Shown here one piece after another: positions 3,447-38,584 of a DNA stretch of 64,000 nucleotides. Both the position numbers and the translations under genes were made by a program. Each line of letters starts with the position of its first letter. The stretch's first letter is position 1. Source of the stretch: Variovorax paradoxus (GTDB lineage: Bacteria > Pseudomonadota > Gammaproteobacteria > Burkholderiales > Burkholderiaceae_C); the NCBI RefSeq assembly GCF_009755665.1, contig NZ_CP046622.1:1674001-1738000 (forward strand). The letters run 5' to 3'. The notes under the pieces are model-generated. The model was given only the letters and a program-made list of their open reading frames with translations, was not told the DNA's origin and did no database searches.

Positions 3447-4598
3447 ATGAAGATCTCCATCATCTCCCCCAATCCCGGCCACCTGCAGGACATGCGCAAG
3501 GTGCTCGAGGCCCGCTCACACGTGGTCTCGCCGTTCGAAGGCGGCAAGAGCCGCATGCAATGGGTGGTCGAGCGATCGGCGCCCGAGCTCCTGCTGGTGG
3601 ACGGCATGTGCTGCGACCCTCATGAGCTGGCGATGGTGGAGCAGCTCACCATGCGCCATCCGGCGATTTCAGTGGTGTTGATGTGCGCCATGCAGACGCC
3701 CGAGTTCCTGATTCTGGCCATGCGTTCTGGCGTCCGCGAGGTGCTGCCTTCGCCGCCCGATCCCGCGGCCCTCGAAGCGGCCGTGGAGCGCATTGCGCTC
3801 AAGATGGCCGGCACCCAGGCACGCGAGCCGGGGCAGGTCGTGGCATTCATGCCGTGCAAGGGCGGCAGCGGTGCCACCTTTCTTGCGACCAACATCGGGC
3901 ATCAGCTGTCCATGCGGCGTTCGGTGCTGCTGATCGACCTGAACCTGCAGTTCGGCGATGCCCTTTCCTACGTGTGCGACCTTCGGCCCACCTGCACTGT
4001 GGCCGACGTGGCACGCGATATCGGCCGGCTCGATGCCTCCTTGCTTGCTGCAAGTGCGGTGACGGTGGCGCCTGGCCTCAGCATTCTTGCCGCGCCCGAG
4101 GACCTTTCCCGCGCCCTGGAAGTCAAGGCCGAGCATATCGATGCCATCCTGCAGGTGGCGGTGGCGCAGTACGACTTCGTGCTGTTCGACCTGGGCCTTC
4201 GCATCGATCCGCTCGCCATTCGCGTGATGGACCGCGCGGACCGCATCTTTCCGGTGCTCCAGCCCAGCCTGCCGCACATCCGCAACGTGACGCGCCTCAT
4301 GCAGATGTTCAAGTCGCTCGGCTACCCGGCAGGCAAGGTCGAACTGCTGGTCAACCGCAGCGCCGGTGGCACGGAGATCGGCCTGTCCGACATGCGTCGT
4401 TCGCTCGGCGGGGCCACGCTGGTCAGCGTGCCCGACGGCGGCAAGGACGTGGACGCCTCGATCAACCGGGGCGTACCGATCGCGGAGATGTCGCGCGGCA
4501 GCGCACTCAGCAAGCGGCTGGTGGAAATCGCCCAGGCGCTCAGTCCGCGCCAGAAGGAAGCGCCGGGCTTCATCGGCCGGCTTTTCCGCCGTGCATGA
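3447..4598 (+). CDS. tadZ: TadZ/CpaE-type pilus localisation ATPase-like protein
   Basis: A 383-residue cytoplasmic protein with an N-terminal receiver-like domain (about 1-120, including LLVDGMCCD and VLPSPPDPAALEAA) and a C-terminal ParA/MinD-like domain. The deviant P-loop KGGSGAT (around residue 135) has Ala where ParA proteins have the catalytic Lys, as in many TadZ/CpaE proteins, so ATP hydrolysis may be weak or absent. LLIDLNLQFGD is the Walker A' region. TadZ homologues place the pilus machine at the cell pole. It lies 19 bp after the second pseudopilin and 54 bp before tadA. Confidence 0.88.
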   Translation: MKISIISPNPGHLQDMRKVLEARSHVVSPFEGGKSRMQWVVERSAPELLLVDGMCCDPHELAMVEQLTMRHPAISVVLMCAMQTPEFLILAMRSGVREVLPSPPDPAALEAAVERIALKMAGTQAREPGQVVAFMPCKGGSGATFLATNIGHQLSMRRSVLLIDLNLQFGDALSYVCDLRPTCTVADVARDIGRLDASLLAASAVTVAPGLSILAAPEDLSRALEVKAEHIDAILQVAVAQYDFVLFDLGLRIDPLAIRVMDRADRIFPVLQPSLPHIRNVTRLMQMFKSLGYPAGKVELLVNRSAGGTEIGLSDMRRSLGGATLVSVPDGGKDVDASINRGVPIAEMSRGSALSKRLVEIAQALSPRQKEAPGFIGRLFRRA

Positions 4599-30822: not shown

Positions 30823-32049
30823 TCAGGCCAATGACTCCGCGGGCTCCAGCGCATCGGCAATCCGCCGTGCGGAGCCGAAAGCCAGTGTGAAGCCCAACGC
30901 GCCGTGCCCGGTGTTGAACAGCATGTTCGGTGGGGCGCTCGCAAGTCGGCCGATGATCGGCAGGCCCTTCGGCGTGGCGGGCCGCATGCCGGTCCACGGG
31001 TGCAGTTCTTCGAGCCGGCTCGCATGCGGGAACACCGCGCGCGTTGCGGCTGCCAGGGTTTCGATGCGCGTGGCCGGAATGCTCGCGTCGTGCCCCACGA
31101 GTTCCGCCATGCCCGCCACCCGCAGCCGCGACCCGATGCGCGCGAACACCACTTTGCGTGCGCTGTCGGTCACGTTCACGCTGGGCGCGGCGCCGGGCGC
31201 AGGATCGACCTCGACGGTGATGCTGTAGCCCTTGAGCGGGTACACCGGCAGGTAGGCGCCGAGCGCACGCCCGAGCTTGTGCGAGGCCGAGCCGAGCGCC
31301 ATCACGAAGGCGTCGGACTCCACGTCGCCATCACTCGTTTTCACGGCGGCCACGCGGCCTTCGCTGCGCGCGAAGCCGTGCACGTCGGCACCGAGCAGAA
31401 AGCGCACGCCGCGCCCGCTGAGCACCCGCATCAGTTCGCCGCAAACCTTCAGGCAATCGGCCGCGCACTCGCTGGGCGTGTAGACAGCGCCGGCCATCTG
31501 GTCGCGATAGCCGGCGAGCGCGGGCTCGATGGCGGCGCATTCGTCGGGCGAAACAATGCGCTGGTCGCTGCCCATGGCGCGCTGCAGTTCGAGTTGCGCG
31601 CGCGCACCTTCAAGCGAGGCCGCGCTGGCGTAGAGCACCAGCTTGCCGGTGGCGGAAAAATCGCAGTCGGGGGCGACGTCGGCCTGCATGGCCTCGAAGC
31701 CGCTGCGGCTCAGCGCCGCCAGCGCCAACAGCTGCGCCGTGGTGTCGCGCGAGGTCTGCGCATTGCAGGCCGCAAGAAAGGCCAGGCCCCAGCGCCACTG
31801 CAGCGGGTCGAGCTGCGGCCGCAGCTTGAGCGGCGAAGAAGGCGAGAGCAGCAGCTTGGGCAGCTGTTTCCATATCGACGGATCGGCCAGCGGCTGCACA
31901 TACGAGTAGCTGAGCTGCGCGCCGTTTCCGCCGCTGGCGCCCGCACCGGGGGCCGCGCGGTCGATCACCGTGACTTGATGGCCCAGGCGTTCGAGTTGCC
32001 AGGCGGTGGCCAGGCCCACGATGCCGGCGCCGAGCACACACACATGCAT
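30823..32049 (-). CDS. dadA: D-amino-acid dehydrogenase (DadA-like, FAD)
   Basis: A 408-residue FAD enzyme that oxidatively deaminates D-amino acids and passes electrons to the respiratory chain at the inner membrane. The N-terminal dinucleotide fold (VCVLGAGIVGLATAWQL), the acidic end of beta-2 (VTVIDR), GNGAQLSYSYVQPLADPS and the C-terminal FAD motif WTGMRPATPKGLPIIG are diagnostic. The start at 32049 places the Rossmann motif at residues 3-19; an upstream frame is rejected. No alanine racemase is adjacent; a solute-binding protein is divergent. Confidence 0.88.
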   Translation of the reverse strand: MHVCVLGAGIVGLATAWQLERLGHQVTVIDRAAPGAGASGGNGAQLSYSYVQPLADPSIWKQLPKLLLSPSSPLKLRPQLDPLQWRWGLAFLAACNAQTSRDTTAQLLALAALSRSGFEAMQADVAPDCDFSATGKLVLYASAASLEGARAQLELQRAMGSDQRIVSPDECAAIEPALAGYRDQMAGAVYTPSECAADCLKVCGELMRVLSGRGVRFLLGADVHGFARSEGRVAAVKTSDGDVESDAFVMALGSASHKLGRALGAYLPVYPLKGYSITVEVDPAPGAAPSVNVTDSARKVVFARIGSRLRVAGMAELVGHDASIPATRIETLAAATRAVFPHASRLEELHPWTGMRPATPKGLPIIGRLASAPPNMLFNTGHGALGFTLAFGSARRIADALEPAESLA

Positions 32050-32181
32050 GGGGCAACTTTCCAAAGGAGGGGGCAAAGAGAGGGGAGTGCTGAATGTAGG
32101 CGCGCGCACGCCTGCCCGGAAATGCCAAAAGCGCGGTGGCCCATAGCCAAAGCGCATGCCTTGATGCTCGCTCTTCCTAAC

Positions 32182-32200
32182 CCATAACCTTTGGGTATGG
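32182..32200. promoter_or_regulatory. Candidate LysR-type operator between dadA and the binding-protein gene
   Basis: The perfect half-sites CCATA (32182-32186) and TATGG (32196-32200) flank nine bases, and within them ATA-N9-TAT meets the loose T-N11-A LysR rule. It lies in the 233-bp divergent region. The nearest LysR gene is the one ending at 30799. Support is by pattern only. Confidence 0.35.
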
Positions 32201-32282
32201 CCTAGGGTTCATTTGGAATTGTCGCCATGTGTCACTCCTTCTTACACTGGCCGCTCTGTTCAACCAACTGAAGAAGGCTCGC

Positions 32283-33170
32283 ATGAAACTCTCCGCATTG
32301 ATGGCCGCTGCTGCCGTGGTGCTGCTTACCGCCACCGGCGTCCAGGCCGCCGACACGCTGGCCAAGATCGCCGAGTCCGGCAAGATCACGCTCGCCTACC
32401 GCGAGTCGTCGGTGCCCTTCAGCTACCTGGACGGGCCCAACAAGCCGATCGGGTTCTCGGTCGAACTTTCCAACGCCGTGGTCGAGGCGGTGAAGAAAAA
32501 GCTCAACAAGCCCAACCTGCAGGTGCAGCTGATGCCTGTGACCTCGCAGAACCGCATTCCGCTGATCACCAACGGCACGGTCGACCTGGAGTGCGGCTCC
32601 ACCACCAACAACAGCGCGCGCGGCAAGGACGTGGCCTTTGCCATCAACCATTTCTACACCGGCACGCGCCTGCTGACCAAGAAGTCTTCCAAGATCAAGG
32701 ACTACGCCGACCTGGCGAAGAAGACGGTGGCCAGCACCACCGGCACCACCAACGCGCTGGTCATGCGCAAGTACAACACCGAGAAGAACCTGGACATGGA
32801 CATCGTGCTCGGCAAGGACCACGCCGACGCCTTCCTGCTGGTGGAAAGCGACCGCGCCGTGGCGTTTGCCATGGACGACATCCTGCTGTTCGGTCTGATT
32901 GCCAACGCCAAGAACCCGGCCGACTACGAAGTGGTGGGCGAGGCGCTGCAGGTCGAGCCCTATGCCTGCATGCTGCCCAAGGACGACCCGGCCTTCAAGA
33001 AGCTGGTGGACGACACCTTCATCGGCCTGATGAAGAGCGGCGAGTTCGAGAAGCTCTACACCAAGTGGTTCATGTCGCCGATTCCGCCGAAGAACGTGCC
33101 GCTGAACTTGCCCATGAGCCAGCAGCTCAAGGACAACATCAAGACGCCTTCCGACAAACCGGCCACTTGA
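32283..33170 (+). CDS. Amino-acid ABC transporter solute-binding protein (GltI-like)
   Basis: A 295-residue periplasmic protein with a signal peptide cut after VQAA (about residue 23), then the SBP_bac_3 fold: KITLAYRESSVPFSYLD, PIGFSVELSNAVVEAV, VDLECGSTTNN. It resembles the glutamate/aspartate-binding protein GltI. No permease or ATPase gene is adjacent, so it must work with components encoded elsewhere. Its neighbours (D-amino-acid dehydrogenase and Asp/Glu racemase) point to a D-amino-acid or acidic amino-acid ligand. Confidence 0.87.
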   Translation: MKLSALMAAAAVVLLTATGVQAADTLAKIAESGKITLAYRESSVPFSYLDGPNKPIGFSVELSNAVVEAVKKKLNKPNLQVQLMPVTSQNRIPLITNGTVDLECGSTTNNSARGKDVAFAINHFYTGTRLLTKKSSKIKDYADLAKKTVASTTGTTNALVMRKYNTEKNLDMDIVLGKDHADAFLLVESDRAVAFAMDDILLFGLIANAKNPADYEVVGEALQVEPYACMLPKDDPAFKKLVDDTFIGLMKSGEFEKLYTKWFMSPIPPKNVPLNLPMSQQLKDNIKTPSDKPAT

Positions 33171-33268
33171 GCTCGCCCCCAGGGCTGCGCGCACTTCGTG
33201 TCGCTTCGCCCACCCCCCTTCCGGGGGCAATACCAGCGGCCCGGCAAAGCCGGTTCCGCGGTATTCCT
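33171..33268. repeat. Intergenic repeat with hairpins; shares a 20-mer with 53465-53484
   Basis: The spacer contains a 20-nt word (33188-33207, CGCGCACTTCGTGTCGCTTC) repeated exactly at 53465-53484, a hairpin CCCCC-TT-CCGGGGG near 33214-33227, and CCGGCAAAGCCGG near 33241-33253. This is a composite dispersed repeat typical of these genomes as far as I recall. It may attenuate transcription into the racemase gene. Confidence 0.6.
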
Positions 33269-33284
33269 GAAACAGAGAAAGACC

Positions 33285-34022
33285 ATGGCTTCGACGAACG
33301 TAGTTGGCATTCTGGGCGGCATGGGCCCTGCGGCGGGGGCGGACTTCGTCCGGCTCTTCGTGCAGGCCTGCGCCCAGCAGATGCGCGCGCGCGGCGAGCC
33401 GGTGCGGGACCAGTCTTTTCCCGAGCACTGGCTGGCGCAGGTTCCGGTGCCCGATCGAACCGACGCGCTGGGCTCGGCAGAGACCGGCGCGCACCAGCCG
33501 CTCGAGCCGATGCTGCAGGCATTGGGGCGCCTGGCCGCACTGGGCAGCCAGGCCGTGGCCATTGCCTGCAACACCGCGCACGCCTGGCATTCCCGGCTGC
33601 AGGAACGTTTTCCGCAGGTGGAGCTGCTGCACATGGCACGCGAGGTGGCACAGCATCTTGCCGCGCAAGGCGCGGGCAACGTGGCGCTGATGGCCACCGA
33701 AGGCACTTATCGCGTGCGCCTCTACGAACATGCGCTAGCCGAAGCGGGGTTCGACTGCCTGGTGCCGCTGCAGGAAGAACGCCGCATCATCACGCGCGGC
33801 ATCTTCGACGGCGTGAAGGCAGGCAACATGCGGCTTGCCGAAGAATGTTTTTCGCAGGTGGCGCTACGGCTCGCGGAAAGGCACGGGCCGGTCACCATCA
33901 TCATGGGCTGCACCGAGGTGCCGCTCGGTCTGCAGGGTTCGGCCGCGGTTGCCGGGCTGAGCCTTGTCGATCCGGCGCAGGTGCTGGCGGCTGCATTGGC
34001 GCGTCGTGCCTATCGCGACTGA
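33285..34022 (+). CDS. Aspartate/glutamate racemase family protein
   Basis: A 245-residue PLP-independent racemase of the Asp/Glu/hydantoin family. Both catalytic Cys are present: Cys95 in AIACNTAHAW and Cys209 in IMGCTEVPL. The N-terminal VVGILGGMGPAAGADF is typical of the aspartate racemase/YgeA branch. It interconverts L- and D-aspartate or glutamate, or a related acid, in the cytoplasm. Together with the nearby FAD D-amino-acid dehydrogenase and binding protein it suggests D-amino-acid use. The ATG at 33285 follows AGAGAAAG. Confidence 0.87.
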   Translation: MASTNVVGILGGMGPAAGADFVRLFVQACAQQMRARGEPVRDQSFPEHWLAQVPVPDRTDALGSAETGAHQPLEPMLQALGRLAALGSQAVAIACNTAHAWHSRLQERFPQVELLHMAREVAQHLAAQGAGNVALMATEGTYRVRLYEHALAEAGFDCLVPLQEERRIITRGIFDGVKAGNMRLAEECFSQVALRLAERHGPVTIIMGCTEVPLGLQGSAAVAGLSLVDPAQVLAAALARRAYRD

Positions 34023-35111: not shown

Positions 35112-35146
35112 ATGAACGTTGTCGGGCATCGGTGCCCATCGAAATT

Positions 35147-35171
35147 GCGCAAGCAGCTATGAATTTGATAG
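35147..35171. repeat. Short intergenic repeat, copy B, overlapping the ZIP start codon
   Basis: The reverse complement matches copy A at 15375-15402 (core CTAT-n-AAA-n3-ATAGCTG-n-CTTGC). The ATG at 35159 used by the ZIP gene lies inside this repeat, so the repeat supplies the translation start of the gene. Confidence 0.6.
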
Positions 35172-36148
35172 TGATCATCGCGGCGACCCTGGTTGCCGGC
35201 ATCGGAAGCGTGTGGCTCGCGGCCTTGCTCTTGCGCGTGGGCGTGCGCAGCGGCTCGGGCGGGGTGAATTCGCAGCACCTGCTGAGCTTGGCCGCAGGGG
35301 CGCTGCTTGCCACAGCGTTCATGCACCTGTTGCCCGAGGCTTTCGAAAGCCGCATCCAGCCCACGCTGCTGTTCGGCGTGCTGCTGTTCGGCCTGGTGTT
35401 CTTCTTTCTGCTGGACAAGGCCGAGCTCTGGCACCACGGGCACGAGCATCACCACGGCAGCCCCGCGCAGGGGCCGGTCGGCGCAGGGCACAAGGCGGAT
35501 CACGCCGCGCACGATCATGCGCACGGCCACGCCCACGGCCATGATCACGCCGACCACGGCCATTCGCACAGCCATGCGCCTCGCGCGGGCGGCGGCTGGG
35601 CCGTGCTCACCGGCGACAGCGTGCACTGCTTCGGCGACGGCATCCTGATTGCGTCGGCCTTCATCGCGGACATCCGCCTTGGCCTGGTGGCGGCCATTGC
35701 CGTGCTCGCGCACGAGGTGCCGCACCACATCGGCGACCTGGTCGTGCTGCGCGAGAGCTCGGCCAACCAGCGCGCGGCGTTGATCAAGGTGTCGCTCGCC
35801 GGCACGATGACCATGCTCGGCGGCATCGTCGGATGGTGGCTGGTCGACCAGCTGCACGGCTGGCTGCCTTACTTCCTGGTGCTGGCCAGCAGCAGTTTCG
35901 TCTACGTGGCGCTGGCCGACCTGATTCCACAGCTGCAAAAGCGCCTGCCCGCGCGGCAGACCGCGGCGCAGATCGTGTGGCTGGTGGTGGGCATTGCACT
36001 GGTCACGCTCGTGAGCCGGCTTGCGCACGGCGAGCACGATCATGGCCACTCGGAACACGGCCACGCCGAGCACAGTCACGCGGAGCATGACCACGCCGAG
36101 CACGGCCATGCGCACGAACGCGAAGGAGCCCCGGCGCACAAGGACTGA
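35159..36148 (+). CDS. ZIP-family divalent metal transporter
   Basis: A 329-residue inner-membrane protein with about eight helices. Metal-site helices carry ALLATAFMHLLPEAFES, HCFGDGILIASAF and AVLAHEVPHHIGD, the HxxD/HExxHH pattern of ZIP proteins that import zinc, iron or manganese. A His-rich loop (about residues 90-140) and a His/Glu-rich C-terminal tail (about 290-325) probably bind metal. The ATG at 35159 is favoured; an in-frame GTG at 35132 is an alternative, and neither has a clear ribosome binding site. It stands alone behind a terminator. Confidence 0.88.
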   Translation: MNLIVIIAATLVAGIGSVWLAALLLRVGVRSGSGGVNSQHLLSLAAGALLATAFMHLLPEAFESRIQPTLLFGVLLFGLVFFFLLDKAELWHHGHEHHHGSPAQGPVGAGHKADHAAHDHAHGHAHGHDHADHGHSHSHAPRAGGGWAVLTGDSVHCFGDGILIASAFIADIRLGLVAAIAVLAHEVPHHIGDLVVLRESSANQRAALIKVSLAGTMTMLGGIVGWWLVDQLHGWLPYFLVLASSSFVYVALADLIPQLQKRLPARQTAAQIVWLVVGIALVTLVSRLAHGEHDHGHSEHGHAEHSHAEHDHAEHGHAHEREGAPAHKD

Positions 36149-36281
36149 CCCACAGCACGGGTTGGATGGATACGTTCCGAAACCGACGCTGTTCCGGGGA
36201 ATTGACGCACGGCACCTGAAAGAGGTGCAACATTGGGGGTCTGACGAATGTCTCGCTCATCCCATCGCCGAGGAACCGATC

Positions 36282-36497
36282 ATGAACAACGTCGACGCCA
36301 AGAAGCGCCCCGCTCCGCCATCGCCCGAAGATGACGACGACGATTCGCCTGTCGACGACTTCGAGGAATCGGAATCGGAAGCTGCCGACGATCTGTCGGA
36401 TGCAACCGGCATCGACCTGACGGACGCCAGCGAACTCGACGCCGATAACGTGCCCGCGGACGAAGAGTTTGCCCGCGTGATGAACGCGCCCGACTAA
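36282..36497 (+). CDS. Small acidic hypothetical protein
   Basis: A 71-residue, strongly acidic protein with a run of five Asp near residue 19 and repeated DD/EE pairs; it is predicted disordered and soluble with no signal peptide. GAGGAACC precedes the ATG at 36282. A small hairpin (GCACCT-GAAAG-AGGTGC, 36212-36228) lies upstream next to a TTGACG box. It does not match a family I can name. Its stop codon overlaps that of the convergent dauA-like gene. Confidence 0.6.
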   Translation: MNNVDAKKRPAPPSPEDDDDDSPVDDFEESESEAADDLSDATGIDLTDASELDADNVPADEEFARVMNAPD

Positions 36498-37678
36498 GCC
36501 GCTTTCGACGACCCCTCGCCACTTGCAGCCGCCGCACGCAAGCGCTGCGGGCCGAGCATTTCGGCCGTCAACCCGAAGCCCGCAATCCGCTGCGGCACCG
36601 GCAGGCCGCGTGCGAGCGCCGCGCACGCCTCGCCCATGGCCGCCGAAGTCTGGATGCCATAGCCACCCTGCGCCGCAAGCCAGAAGAAGCCGGGCGCCTC
36701 GGGCTCGAAGCCGCCCACCAGGTCGCCGTCGGCCACGAAGGAACGCAGGCCGGCCCAGGTGCGGGTAGGGCGGCGAATGGTGAGTGTGGTTGCTTCCTCG
36801 ATGCGGTGAATGGCGAAGGCGACGTCCAGTTCTTCGGGTTGCACGTCCTGCGGCTCGACCGGATCGGCGTTGGCCGGCGAACCGAGCAGCATGCCGGCGT
36901 CGGGCTTGATGTACCAGCCTTCGTCGGCGCTGAACACCATGGGCCAGTGCGCCACGCTGCTGCCTTCCGGCGGCGCGAAGATGAAGGCCGAGCGGCGTCG
37001 CGGTTCGATGCCGATGGGCCGCACGCCAGCCAGTTGCGCAATGGTGTCGACCCACGCGCCCGCCGCGTTGATGACCACCGGCGCTTCGTAGACAGCGCCG
37101 CCGGCCGTCACGCGCCAGCGGTCGCCCACGCGTTCGAGCGCCGTCACGCCGGCATCGCACACCAGCTTGCCGCCGGCCTGCCGCATGCCGCGCAGGTAGC
37201 CCTGGTGGATGGCATGCACGTCCATGTCGGAGGCATCGGGTTCATAAACGCCGCCCGCCACTTGTTCGGGCCGCAGCGCAGGCACCATCTCGATCGCCTC
37301 TTCGCTGCTGAGCCGCTGTGCGCCGGTGTTCATGGCGCGCAGCACTTTCCAGTGCGCTTCGAGCTCGGCCACATGGTCGGCATCGGCCACCATCAACGCG
37401 CCGCGCGGTGTGAGCAGCGGGTGCTCGGCAAAGCCTTCTGGCGGATGTTCGAGAAACGCGCGGCTTGCCATGGTGAGCGCGCGCACCTGCGCCGTGCCGT
37501 AGCTTTCCATGAAGAGCGCGGCCGAGCGGCCCGTGGAGTGGTAGCCGGGTTGGGCTTCGCGTTCGAGCAGGATCACGCGTGCATGCGGCGCGAGCCAGTA
37601 GGCCACCGAGGCACCGGCAATGCCGCCGCCAATCACGAGGTAGTCGGCTGCAACGGGCGTAGGTGTGTTGGAGGTCAT
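36494..37678 (-). CDS. dauA: D-arginine dehydrogenase-like FAD enzyme
   Basis: A 394-residue FAD-dependent D-amino-acid dehydrogenase. It closely resembles Pseudomonas aeruginosa DauA: YLVIGGGIAGASVAYWL, LEREAQPGYHSTGRSAA, PRRRSAFIFAPP, AGMLLGSPANADPVEPQDV, TLTIRRPTRTWAGLRSF and FFWLAAQGGYGIQTSAAMGE are all in place. DauA oxidises D-arginine and other basic D-amino acids to the 2-oxo acid plus ammonia. The ATG at 37678 matches that family start; a longer frame is rejected. A perfect 20-bp palindrome ends 19 bp upstream, and a divergent XRE-cupin regulator is adjacent. Confidence 0.88.
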   Translation of the reverse strand: MTSNTPTPVAADYLVIGGGIAGASVAYWLAPHARVILLEREAQPGYHSTGRSAALFMESYGTAQVRALTMASRAFLEHPPEGFAEHPLLTPRGALMVADADHVAELEAHWKVLRAMNTGAQRLSSEEAIEMVPALRPEQVAGGVYEPDASDMDVHAIHQGYLRGMRQAGGKLVCDAGVTALERVGDRWRVTAGGAVYEAPVVINAAGAWVDTIAQLAGVRPIGIEPRRRSAFIFAPPEGSSVAHWPMVFSADEGWYIKPDAGMLLGSPANADPVEPQDVQPEELDVAFAIHRIEEATTLTIRRPTRTWAGLRSFVADGDLVGGFEPEAPGFFWLAAQGGYGIQTSAAMGEACAALARGLPVPQRIAGFGLTAEMLGPQRLRAAAASGEGSSKAA

Positions 37679-37696
37679 TGGCGGAGTGTATGTAGA

Positions 37697-37716
37697 AATT
37701 TGCGTATACGCAAATT
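37697..37716. promoter_or_regulatory. Perfect 20-bp palindromic operator, dauA-proximal
   Basis: AATTTGCGTATACGCAAATT is its own reverse complement. Its core TTTGCG-N4-CGCAAA recurs twice more in the same 204-bp divergent region. It lies directly ahead of the dauA-like start. The likely binder is the XRE-cupin protein encoded at 37883-38584. Confidence 0.75.
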
Positions 37717-37761
37717 CAACCGCGATCAACCTAGAGGAGGCGGGCCGCACCATGGTGGTGA

Positions 37762-37796
37762 AATTTGCGTTCGCGCAATTTGCACATACGCAATTT
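37762..37796. promoter_or_regulatory. Two overlapping operators proximal to the XRE-cupin gene
   Basis: TTTGCG-TTCG-CGCAAT (37764-37779) and TTTGCA-CATA-CGCAAT (37779-37794) are spaced 15 bp centre to centre. Both fit the pattern TTTGCR-N4-CGCAAW seen in the palindrome at 37697-37716, whose centre is 65 bp from the first of these. Confidence 0.7.
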
Positions 37797-37882
37797 CCAT
37801 GCGTCAGCAGCGGGTGTCGTGGCACGGATTCGGGCGCTGAACTGGCAGAATTGCGCTGCACTACTACAAGAGAGAGCCAAGC

Positions 37883-38584
37883 GTGAACCCACACACGGGC
37901 AACAAGCCGCGAGCCAAGCCGGGGACAAAGCCGAAGGACGAGCAGCCGGCGCTGGACCGCACCACCTTCGGCAACCGCCTGCGCACCGCGCGCAAGCGTT
38001 TCGGCTGGACGCTGGCGCAGCTGGCAGAGCGCTCGGGCGTGTCGATCACCACCATCTCGCGCGCGGAACGCGGGCAGCTCGCGCTCGGGTACGAGAACTT
38101 CACCGCGCTGGGCCGCGCGCTCGAGATGGACATGAACGCGATGTTCGCGGGTGCCGGCGTCAAGCCCGCGCAGCTCGATGGGCCGGTCGTCACCCGCGCG
38201 GGCAAGGGCGTGGTGTACCGCGGTCTTTCAATCGCCTACGAGTTCCTGGGCACCACGGCCGCGGGCAAGCAGATGAGCCCGATCGTCGGTACCGTGCACG
38301 CGCGGCGTATCCATGGCCCGGAAGACTTCGTGAGGCATGCGGGAGAAGAGTTCGCCTATGTGCTTTCGGGCGAGATCGAAGTGCATTTCGACAACGGCAA
38401 GGTGGTGCGCCTTGCGCGCGGCGACTCGCTGTATTTCGACAGCCGCATCGGCCACGCCTACGTGAGTGTCAGCAGGCAGCTTGCAAAGATCGTGGGCATG
38501 ACCACGGCGGAAAGCGGGCACATGAAGTCGGCGCGCGAAGCGCCTGCGGCGCCCGCCCTAAAACCGGCGCGCAAGGCCCGGTGA
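37883..38584 (+). CDS. XRE-family regulator with C-terminal cupin sensor
   Basis: A 233-residue regulator. After a basic N-terminal tail (1-25), the XRE helix-turn-helix (about 28-85: FGNRLRTARKRFGWTLAQLAERSGVSITTISRAERG) is followed by a cupin_2 domain (about 130-205: HAGEEFAYVLSGEIEVHF, then GDSLYFDSRIGHAY) that would bind a small effector. The start is GTG at 37883. Proteins of this architecture often control amine or amino-acid catabolism. It is divergent from the dauA-like gene, with three matching operator sites between them, consistent with local and self-regulation. Confidence 0.9.
   Translation: MNPHTGNKPRAKPGTKPKDEQPALDRTTFGNRLRTARKRFGWTLAQLAERSGVSITTISRAERGQLALGYENFTALGRALEMDMNAMFAGAGVKPAQLDGPVVTRAGKGVVYRGLSIAYEFLGTTAAGKQMSPIVGTVHARRIHGPEDFVRHAGEEFAYVLSGEIEVHFDNGKVVRLARGDSLYFDSRIGHAYVSVSRQLAKIVGMTTAESGHMKSAREAPAAPALKPARKAR

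Follow-up and report, generated by a model that had tools for sequence, protein, structure and literature searches.

We analysed a stretch of 64,000 nucleotides from Variovorax paradoxus (hereafter the window), in which the gene of a DauA-type flavin adenine dinucleotide (FAD) amino-acid dehydrogenase (dauA; 36497..37678, minus strand) and that of an XRE-cupin transcriptional regulator (37883..38584, plus strand) are divergent. The 204-bp intergenic region between them contains three 20-bp palindromic sites (S1, S2 and S3), and conservation and co-occurrence among relatives argue very strongly that these are operators of the adjacent regulator. Taken together, the comparisons point to the XRE-cupin protein as the probable local metabolic repressor of dauA, which would act through the three palindromes and be released by an effector. 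XRE-cupin control of this kind is already known from Pseudomonas; the new part is the conserved 65 + 15-bp array.

S1 (AATTTGCGTATACGCAAATT, 37697-37716) is a perfect 20-bp palindrome beside dauA and covers a -35-like TTGCGT hexamer. S2 (AATTTGCGTTCGCGCAATTT, 37762-37781) lies 65 bp from S1, centre to centre, and S3 (AATTTGCACATACGCAATTT, 37777-37796) overlaps S2 by 5 bp at a centre-to-centre distance of 15 bp, the two spanning 35 bp together. An earlier reading of the window's letters (hereafter the original prediction) had described this layout, i.e. a perfect palindrome beside dauA and an overlapping pair at 15-bp spacing 65 bp away, all fitting TTTGCR-N4-CGCAAW; our measurements agree with it throughout, with exact 16-bp cores at 37699-37714, 37764-37779 and 37779-37794. 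The source genome is a single Variovorax-type contig of 5,574,400 bases (5.57 Mb), and in it the exact 20-bp pattern (AATTTGCRNNNNYGCAAWTT) occurs at three places, all in the array, while a shorter pattern (TTTGCRNNNNYGCAAW) occurs at ten further places. The 16-bp pattern with up to two mismatches is not enriched in the window (22 matches; 25.7 in shuffles, standard deviation 5.6). A weight matrix built on 53 distinct sites of relatives, the window's own included, returns S1, S2 and S3 as sole matches within the window at 12 bits or more; 1000 random 200-bp sequences gave nine matches at 10 bits and none at 12. This matrix is not independent of the array, whereas the genome count of the exact pattern is. 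A wider regulon was considered and rejected: the exact pattern is confined to the array, and a site with one mismatch (G000:C1:3585325; L007 about 1499-1650), beside a different helix-turn-helix (HTH) gene and TTGCGAA repeats, is probably unrelated.

We then compared the array among relatives. The search covered 100 same-genus genomes, including the window's own (G000); 92 match the regulator, many through distant paralogues only. A first set of 70 loci (L014-L083) has a DauA-type gene divergent beside the regulator in 66 cases; no such gene was found beside the regulator in L066, L081, L082 and L083, which stand outside the pair count. Three sites are present in 60 of these 66 pairs, two in one and one in five. 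A named set, i.e. the best 80 of 88 loci, overlaps the first and spans Variovorax, Xenophilus, Ramlibacter, Cupriavidus, Hydrogenophaga, Curvibacter, Caenimonas, Acidovorax, Rhodoferax and others, with Variovorax holding the nearest named relatives of the regulator; four loci (L138, L147, L177 and L183) are outside the named pairs. All 80 loci have at least one site of at least 10 bits, that of L168 being weak (11.9 bits). The 142 loci reduce to 99 distinct intergenic regions after identical ones are merged, and the motif, whose presence in relatives was decisive for the original prediction, is found at 10 bits or more in all 99. Three sites occur in 69 of these regions, two in 12 and one in 18; in L157 and L161, both counted as single-site, another site follows after 66 bp and runs into what is presumed to be the start of the regulator gene. 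The array turns up in several separate lineages of a quick tree built from 71 regulators (19 of its 68 inner branches starred), and it therefore looks old. The Cupriavidus loci L144, L145, L147 and L151 have the abutting pair only, and L177 a single site, while L057, to judge by eye from its flanking sequence, looks to have lost DNA between S1 and S3.

The distances between sites are kept far more strictly than their distances to the two genes. Of the 60 three-site pairs in the first set, 59 have S1 and S2 62-66 bp apart and one has them 109 bp apart; S2 and S3 are 15 bp apart in all but one, where the distance is 16 bp. For the 99 distinct regions, pairs were first counted with preset ranges (S1-S2 60-68 or 109 bp; S2-S3 14-16 bp). 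When the count was repeated without preset ranges on the 69 three-site regions, the first spacing was 65 bp in 47, 64 bp in 13, 66 bp in six and 62, 63 or 109 bp in one each, and the second was 15 bp in 66, 16 bp in two and 14 bp in one. The 12 two-site regions have distances of 64-65 bp (four), 15 bp (four), 79 bp (two; the S1-S3 distance), 23 bp (one) and 86 bp (one). With the 109-bp case excluded, the first spacing has a standard deviation of 0.66 bp; the corresponding values are 20.9 bp for the distance between the dauA start and S1 and 12.4 bp for that between S3 and the start of the regulator gene. DNA between the sites is much less conserved than the S1-S2 spacing in 66 aligned intergenic regions. 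A distance of 65 bp amounts to about 6.2 helical turns, and 109 bp to roughly four turns more.

The sites follow the regulator rather than its neighbour. Across 515,550 bases around 80 named regulator genes, all sites of at least 16 bits but one (in L183) fall between 500 bp upstream of the regulator match and 60 bp inside it. A site is also retained where the neighbouring gene differs, i.e. an M81 peptidase (L138 and L147), other DAO proteins (L177 and L183) or an amidohydrolase (L066). Among 33 same-genus genomes without an orthologous regulator, 14 have a DauA-type match (E 1e-60 or better), and seven of the 15 matches are dauA orthologues (71-82% identity). Upstream of these seven, no site of the strict pattern was found over 330 bp (252 bp in L089), one of the genomes (G088) being only 69% complete; an AGTNTAG block is kept, by eye, in six of them. 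XRE-cupin paralogues away from dauA have no site (L082 and L083, 41-43% identity) or a weak one of 15.7 bits (L081, 57% identity). These observations also bear on the possibility that some other, unlinked transcription factor binds the sites, to which the one-mismatch match beside a different HTH gene would lend some colour. We regard it as very improbable, because the sites adjoin the XRE-cupin regulator, persist when the target gene changes and were not found within 330 bp (252 bp in L089) of the seven dauA orthologues that lack the regulator. Two side observations concern such variant loci. In L066, strong operator copies (1619-1638 and 3770-3789) flank the regulator, one before the amidohydrolase-type gene and the other before a separate DAO-type gene. 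In L084-L086, where dauA lacks an XRE-cupin partner, the AGTGTAG block is kept and a different palindrome-like element (CGTGTGGATACACG, last letters differing in L086) lies upstream, as if a different regulator had taken over.

The position of S1 suggests how dauA would be controlled. A -10-like hexamer (TACACT, 37685..37690, minus strand) lies 6 nucleotides (nt) before the dauA ATG (37678-37676), and the -35-like TTGCGT inside S1 (37708-37713, minus strand) is separated from it by a 17-bp spacer. Among the 99 regions, an AGTNTAK block ends 5 nt (76) or 4 nt (6) from the first site, and in the other 17 it was not found there. The stretch between first site and dauA start differs in length among regions, although that from the block to S1 is fixed. 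Since S1 overlaps this conserved promoter-like block, repression of dauA by the XRE-cupin protein bound at S1 is most likely, an assignment in which we place good confidence, and occlusion would follow from the -35-like hexamer lying within the site. A dimer on S1 would cover the -35 region and spacer, blocking RNA polymerase; effector-bound protein would leave the DNA, and the enzyme would be made. As the ATG stands 6 nt past TACACT, with no room for a Shine-Dalgarno sequence, the dauA mRNA may be leaderless, or nearly so, in the main clade, unlike that of relatives with longer leaders.

Alternatively, the regulator could activate dauA together with its effector from S2 and S3, whose centres fall, by hand, near -93 and -108 of the putative start, with S1 as an off-site. 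The fixed distance from S2 to the dauA promoter would suit such activation, which we nevertheless consider unlikely, because DbuR and the XRE-cupins of Pseudomonas aeruginosa act as repressors in the accessible parts of PMC12724383 and PMC7901475 and because single-site relatives mostly keep the promoter-overlapping S1.

Several points weigh against repression through the whole array: (i) a sigma-70 consensus scan called no promoter at dauA, and the putative one is drawn from conservation; (ii) in most three-site species about 46 bp separate the end of S3 from the regulator gene's -10-like element, and autorepression by occlusion is thus not obvious; (iii) 18 of the 99 regions have a single site, so S2 and S3 are not needed everywhere; (iv) S1 in single-site regions is no stronger than in the 46 multi-site regions of the main clade (p 0.17) or in all multi-site regions (p 0.26); (v) D-branched-chain amino acids acted partly without DbuR in Pseudomonas putida, as far as the available text of PMC12724383 goes; and (vi) NceR of Neisseria gonorrhoeae, discussed below, is an activator. 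With respect to (iv), the 27 multi-site regions that lie outside the main clade do have a weaker S1 than the single-site regions (p 2e-4; L168, L157 and L161 left out of all three tests), and the idea that a lone S1 must be stronger was dropped for this mixed result across comparison groups.

The regulator's own promoter appears to be marked by TGGCAGAAT (37843..37851, plus strand), an extended -10-like element within a block conserved in 66 aligned intergenic regions. The corresponding TGGCASAAT lies about 46 bp past S3 in most loci and 24-26, 33-37 or 58 bp past it in others. These distances fall near helical steps (p about 0.003 on 12 distinct distances from 19 lineages chosen by hand, not corrected for kinship), which is suggestive only; the single-site loci L064 and L065 (19-20 bp from S1 to TGGCASAAT) are off register and outside that test. 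It is possible, though we doubt it, that S2 and S3 belong to the promoter of the regulator gene itself, an arrangement seen with restriction-modification controller proteins, while S1 alone controls dauA and the two parts are not in contact. One such controller, C.Esp1396I (PMC3758141, accessible part), is likewise a small HTH dimer with three operators arranged as a 35-bp cooperative pair and a separate site; it has no cupin sensor and differs in biology and motif, so the likeness is one of layout. Separate action of S1 and S2/S3 leaves their fixed spacing unexplained, and the helical-step result is weakened by the kinship among its lineages and by L064 and L065. Repression of dauA with joint action of S2/S3 and S1 is what we lean towards: dimers on the abutting S2 and S3 would raise the occupancy of S1 through protein-protein contact over a short loop, and would probably also govern how strongly the regulator gene is expressed. 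That a loop in particular is the means has slightly less than an even chance. In Escherichia coli, loops of 6-8 turns (70-85 bp) are reported to repress (PMC5081198, accessible part). The original prediction of cooperative binding or looping thus stands as regards a layout that suits cooperative binding, while cooperation or looping itself is suggested by the conserved spacing.

The nearest studied system is DbuR-dbuABC of P. putida, described in 2025, in which, according to the available part of PMC12724383, an XRE-cupin gene is divergent from a D-amino-acid oxidase gene as in the window, and DbuR represses that gene from a 20-bp palindrome over its promoter. The DbuR operator (AATTCTCATATATTAGAATT) has AATT ends, lies over the -10 element and falls within a 44-bp footprint. 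S1 shares its AATT-N12-AATT frame and 13 of 20 letters; the AATTCTC...AGAATT type was not found in the array. The window also differs in having three sites at fixed spacing rather than a single protected stretch, and the Rid2 and transporter genes that follow the oxidase gene in dbuABC were not seen 3' of dauA. A further DauA-type gene (57-60% identity) is present in L091 and L093, divergent from an XRE-cupin gene (37% identity); AATTCTCATTTACGAGAATT before this enzyme gene matches the DbuR footprint palindrome at 17 of 20 letters; L094 has the same Dbu-type pair with AATTCTCATTTACGAGAATT, the assigned start of its DauA-type gene cutting into the operator. The two paralogous pairs, array-type and Dbu-type, thus have the 20-bp frame in common and differ in its inner letters. 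Their recognition-helix regions, placed by eye, differ too (SITTISRAE versus ALSTLSKME). As no DbuR-named protein was among the best 120 of 457 matches to the Dbu-type regulator, the Dbu link rests on operator and gene order; a further protein search covered the best 120 of 594 matches. We tentatively picture the array as a phase-locked nucleoprotein switch, in which the XRE-cupin protein would form a 65-bp loop by joining S1 to S2/S3, in helical register with the two divergent promoters, one small-molecule signal would set enzyme and sensor at a sharp threshold, and the paralogous pairs would have drifted in the inner letters of the shared frame; we consider this fuller picture less likely than not.

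Several other XRE-cupin proteins are consistent with a local role. PsdR, PauR, ErfA and PA0535 of P. aeruginosa are mostly local repressors and resemble the window's regulator in domain make-up, palindromic sites and targets mostly beside their own genes; PA0535 controls an FAD oxidoreductase gene, recalling the dauA-regulator pair, and no 65 + 15-bp array was found for them in the accessible part of PMC7901475. The XRE-family protein NceR, grouped among XRE-cupins in the available text of PMC12724383, is a multi-site relative with a different target: it activates ompA in an iron-dependent manner, with three regions protected at one promoter and primarily one site bound (PMC10470515, accessible part).

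We also analysed the dehydrogenase. The dauA product belongs to PF01266, has DauA (3nyc, 487 bits) as best PDB match and shares 222 of 373 aligned residues (60%) with P. aeruginosa DauA. Tyr53, Arg222, Glu246, Tyr249 and Arg305 of the P. aeruginosa D-arginine dehydrogenase (PaDADH) are kept, whereas His48, Thr50 and Glu87 are replaced by Leu, Met and Ala, and by Met, Met and Ala in the Dbu-type L091, L093 and L094. Over 142 loci, duplicates included, the position of Glu87 holds Ala in the window and in 135 of the 138 relatives that could be read there, the other three having Val; four more have a gap. Glu87 together with Glu246 binds the guanidinium group of the substrate in D-arginine dehydrogenase (PMC11193025, accessible part). 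The dauBAR system of P. aeruginosa thus has a homologous DauA and differs from the window in regulator family, gene neighbours and substrate-binding residues. DauR is indeed of another family, as the original prediction had stated (PF08348, from one table entry), and this family has no match in the genome, while the dauB family (PF02423) has two genes, each more than 2 Mb from dauA. Control of D-arginine catabolism, which the original prediction had proposed, was rejected on these grounds, i.e. Ala at the D-arginine-binding Glu87, Leu at His48, and dauB and dauR not being neighbours. A hydrophobic pocket for neutral D-amino acids appears more likely than a preference for D-arginine, and the enzyme probably oxidises D-amino acids. 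Because PaDADH is broad, accepting all D-amino acids save D-Asp and D-Glu in the available text of PMC11193025, the substrate of the window's enzyme cannot be read off.

The regulator (233 amino acids, GTG start) combines HTH and Cupin_2 domains (PF13560, PF01381 and PF07883 above cut-off). Its His152, Glu156 and His191 are invariant in 50 aligned proteins and align with HppE residues 138, 142 and 180, which we take to be iron ligands; a metal-bound effector is therefore plausible. A first structure model was poor (predicted local distance difference test 40.6), and a second (78.5) matched HppE, XRE and cupin folds. The cupin domain would bind, likely via a metal, a small molecule that the dehydrogenase uses or produces. 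For the effector, a D-amino acid or the matching 2-oxo acid is a reasonable expectation, and very probably the effector is not specifically D-arginine.

XRE-cupin regulators with a known site are few. The three-site array appears unreported in open-licence PMC papers, judged by titles and the starts of abstracts, and neither Variovorax nor TTTGCG occurs in the accessible main text of a paper on XRE palindromes (PMC12565409). For a large group in the Comamonadaceae and some relatives, the array provides a putative site, a position that overlaps the promoter and a multi-site geometry that is conserved; its spacing, retained across many soil- and water-dwelling relatives, suggests that the dehydrogenase is under a local on/off switch. 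Natural variants (e.g. one, two or three sites, 109-bp spacing and swapped target genes) make cooperation and looping directly testable, and the two operator types of the paralogous pairs offer a case for mapping HTH residues to inner letters.

Further features were noted. An GGGTAAACAC-like element lies between S1 and S2 in distant relatives (e.g. L071, L074 and L078) and is degenerate in the window (37717-37761), with eight genome matches against three for a reversed control. By eye, the minus-strand list of open reading frames holds no plausible gene 3' of dauA; the next plausible ones past it (35132-36148 and 36021-36497) read in the opposite direction. About 2.5-5.7 kb past the dauA end, the stretch 30823-34022 is a D-amino-acid neighbourhood that encodes a D-amino-acid dehydrogenase of DadA type (above the cut-off of NF001933), an ABC binding protein of the glutamate/aspartate type and an amino-acid racemase (above the cut-off of TIGR00035).
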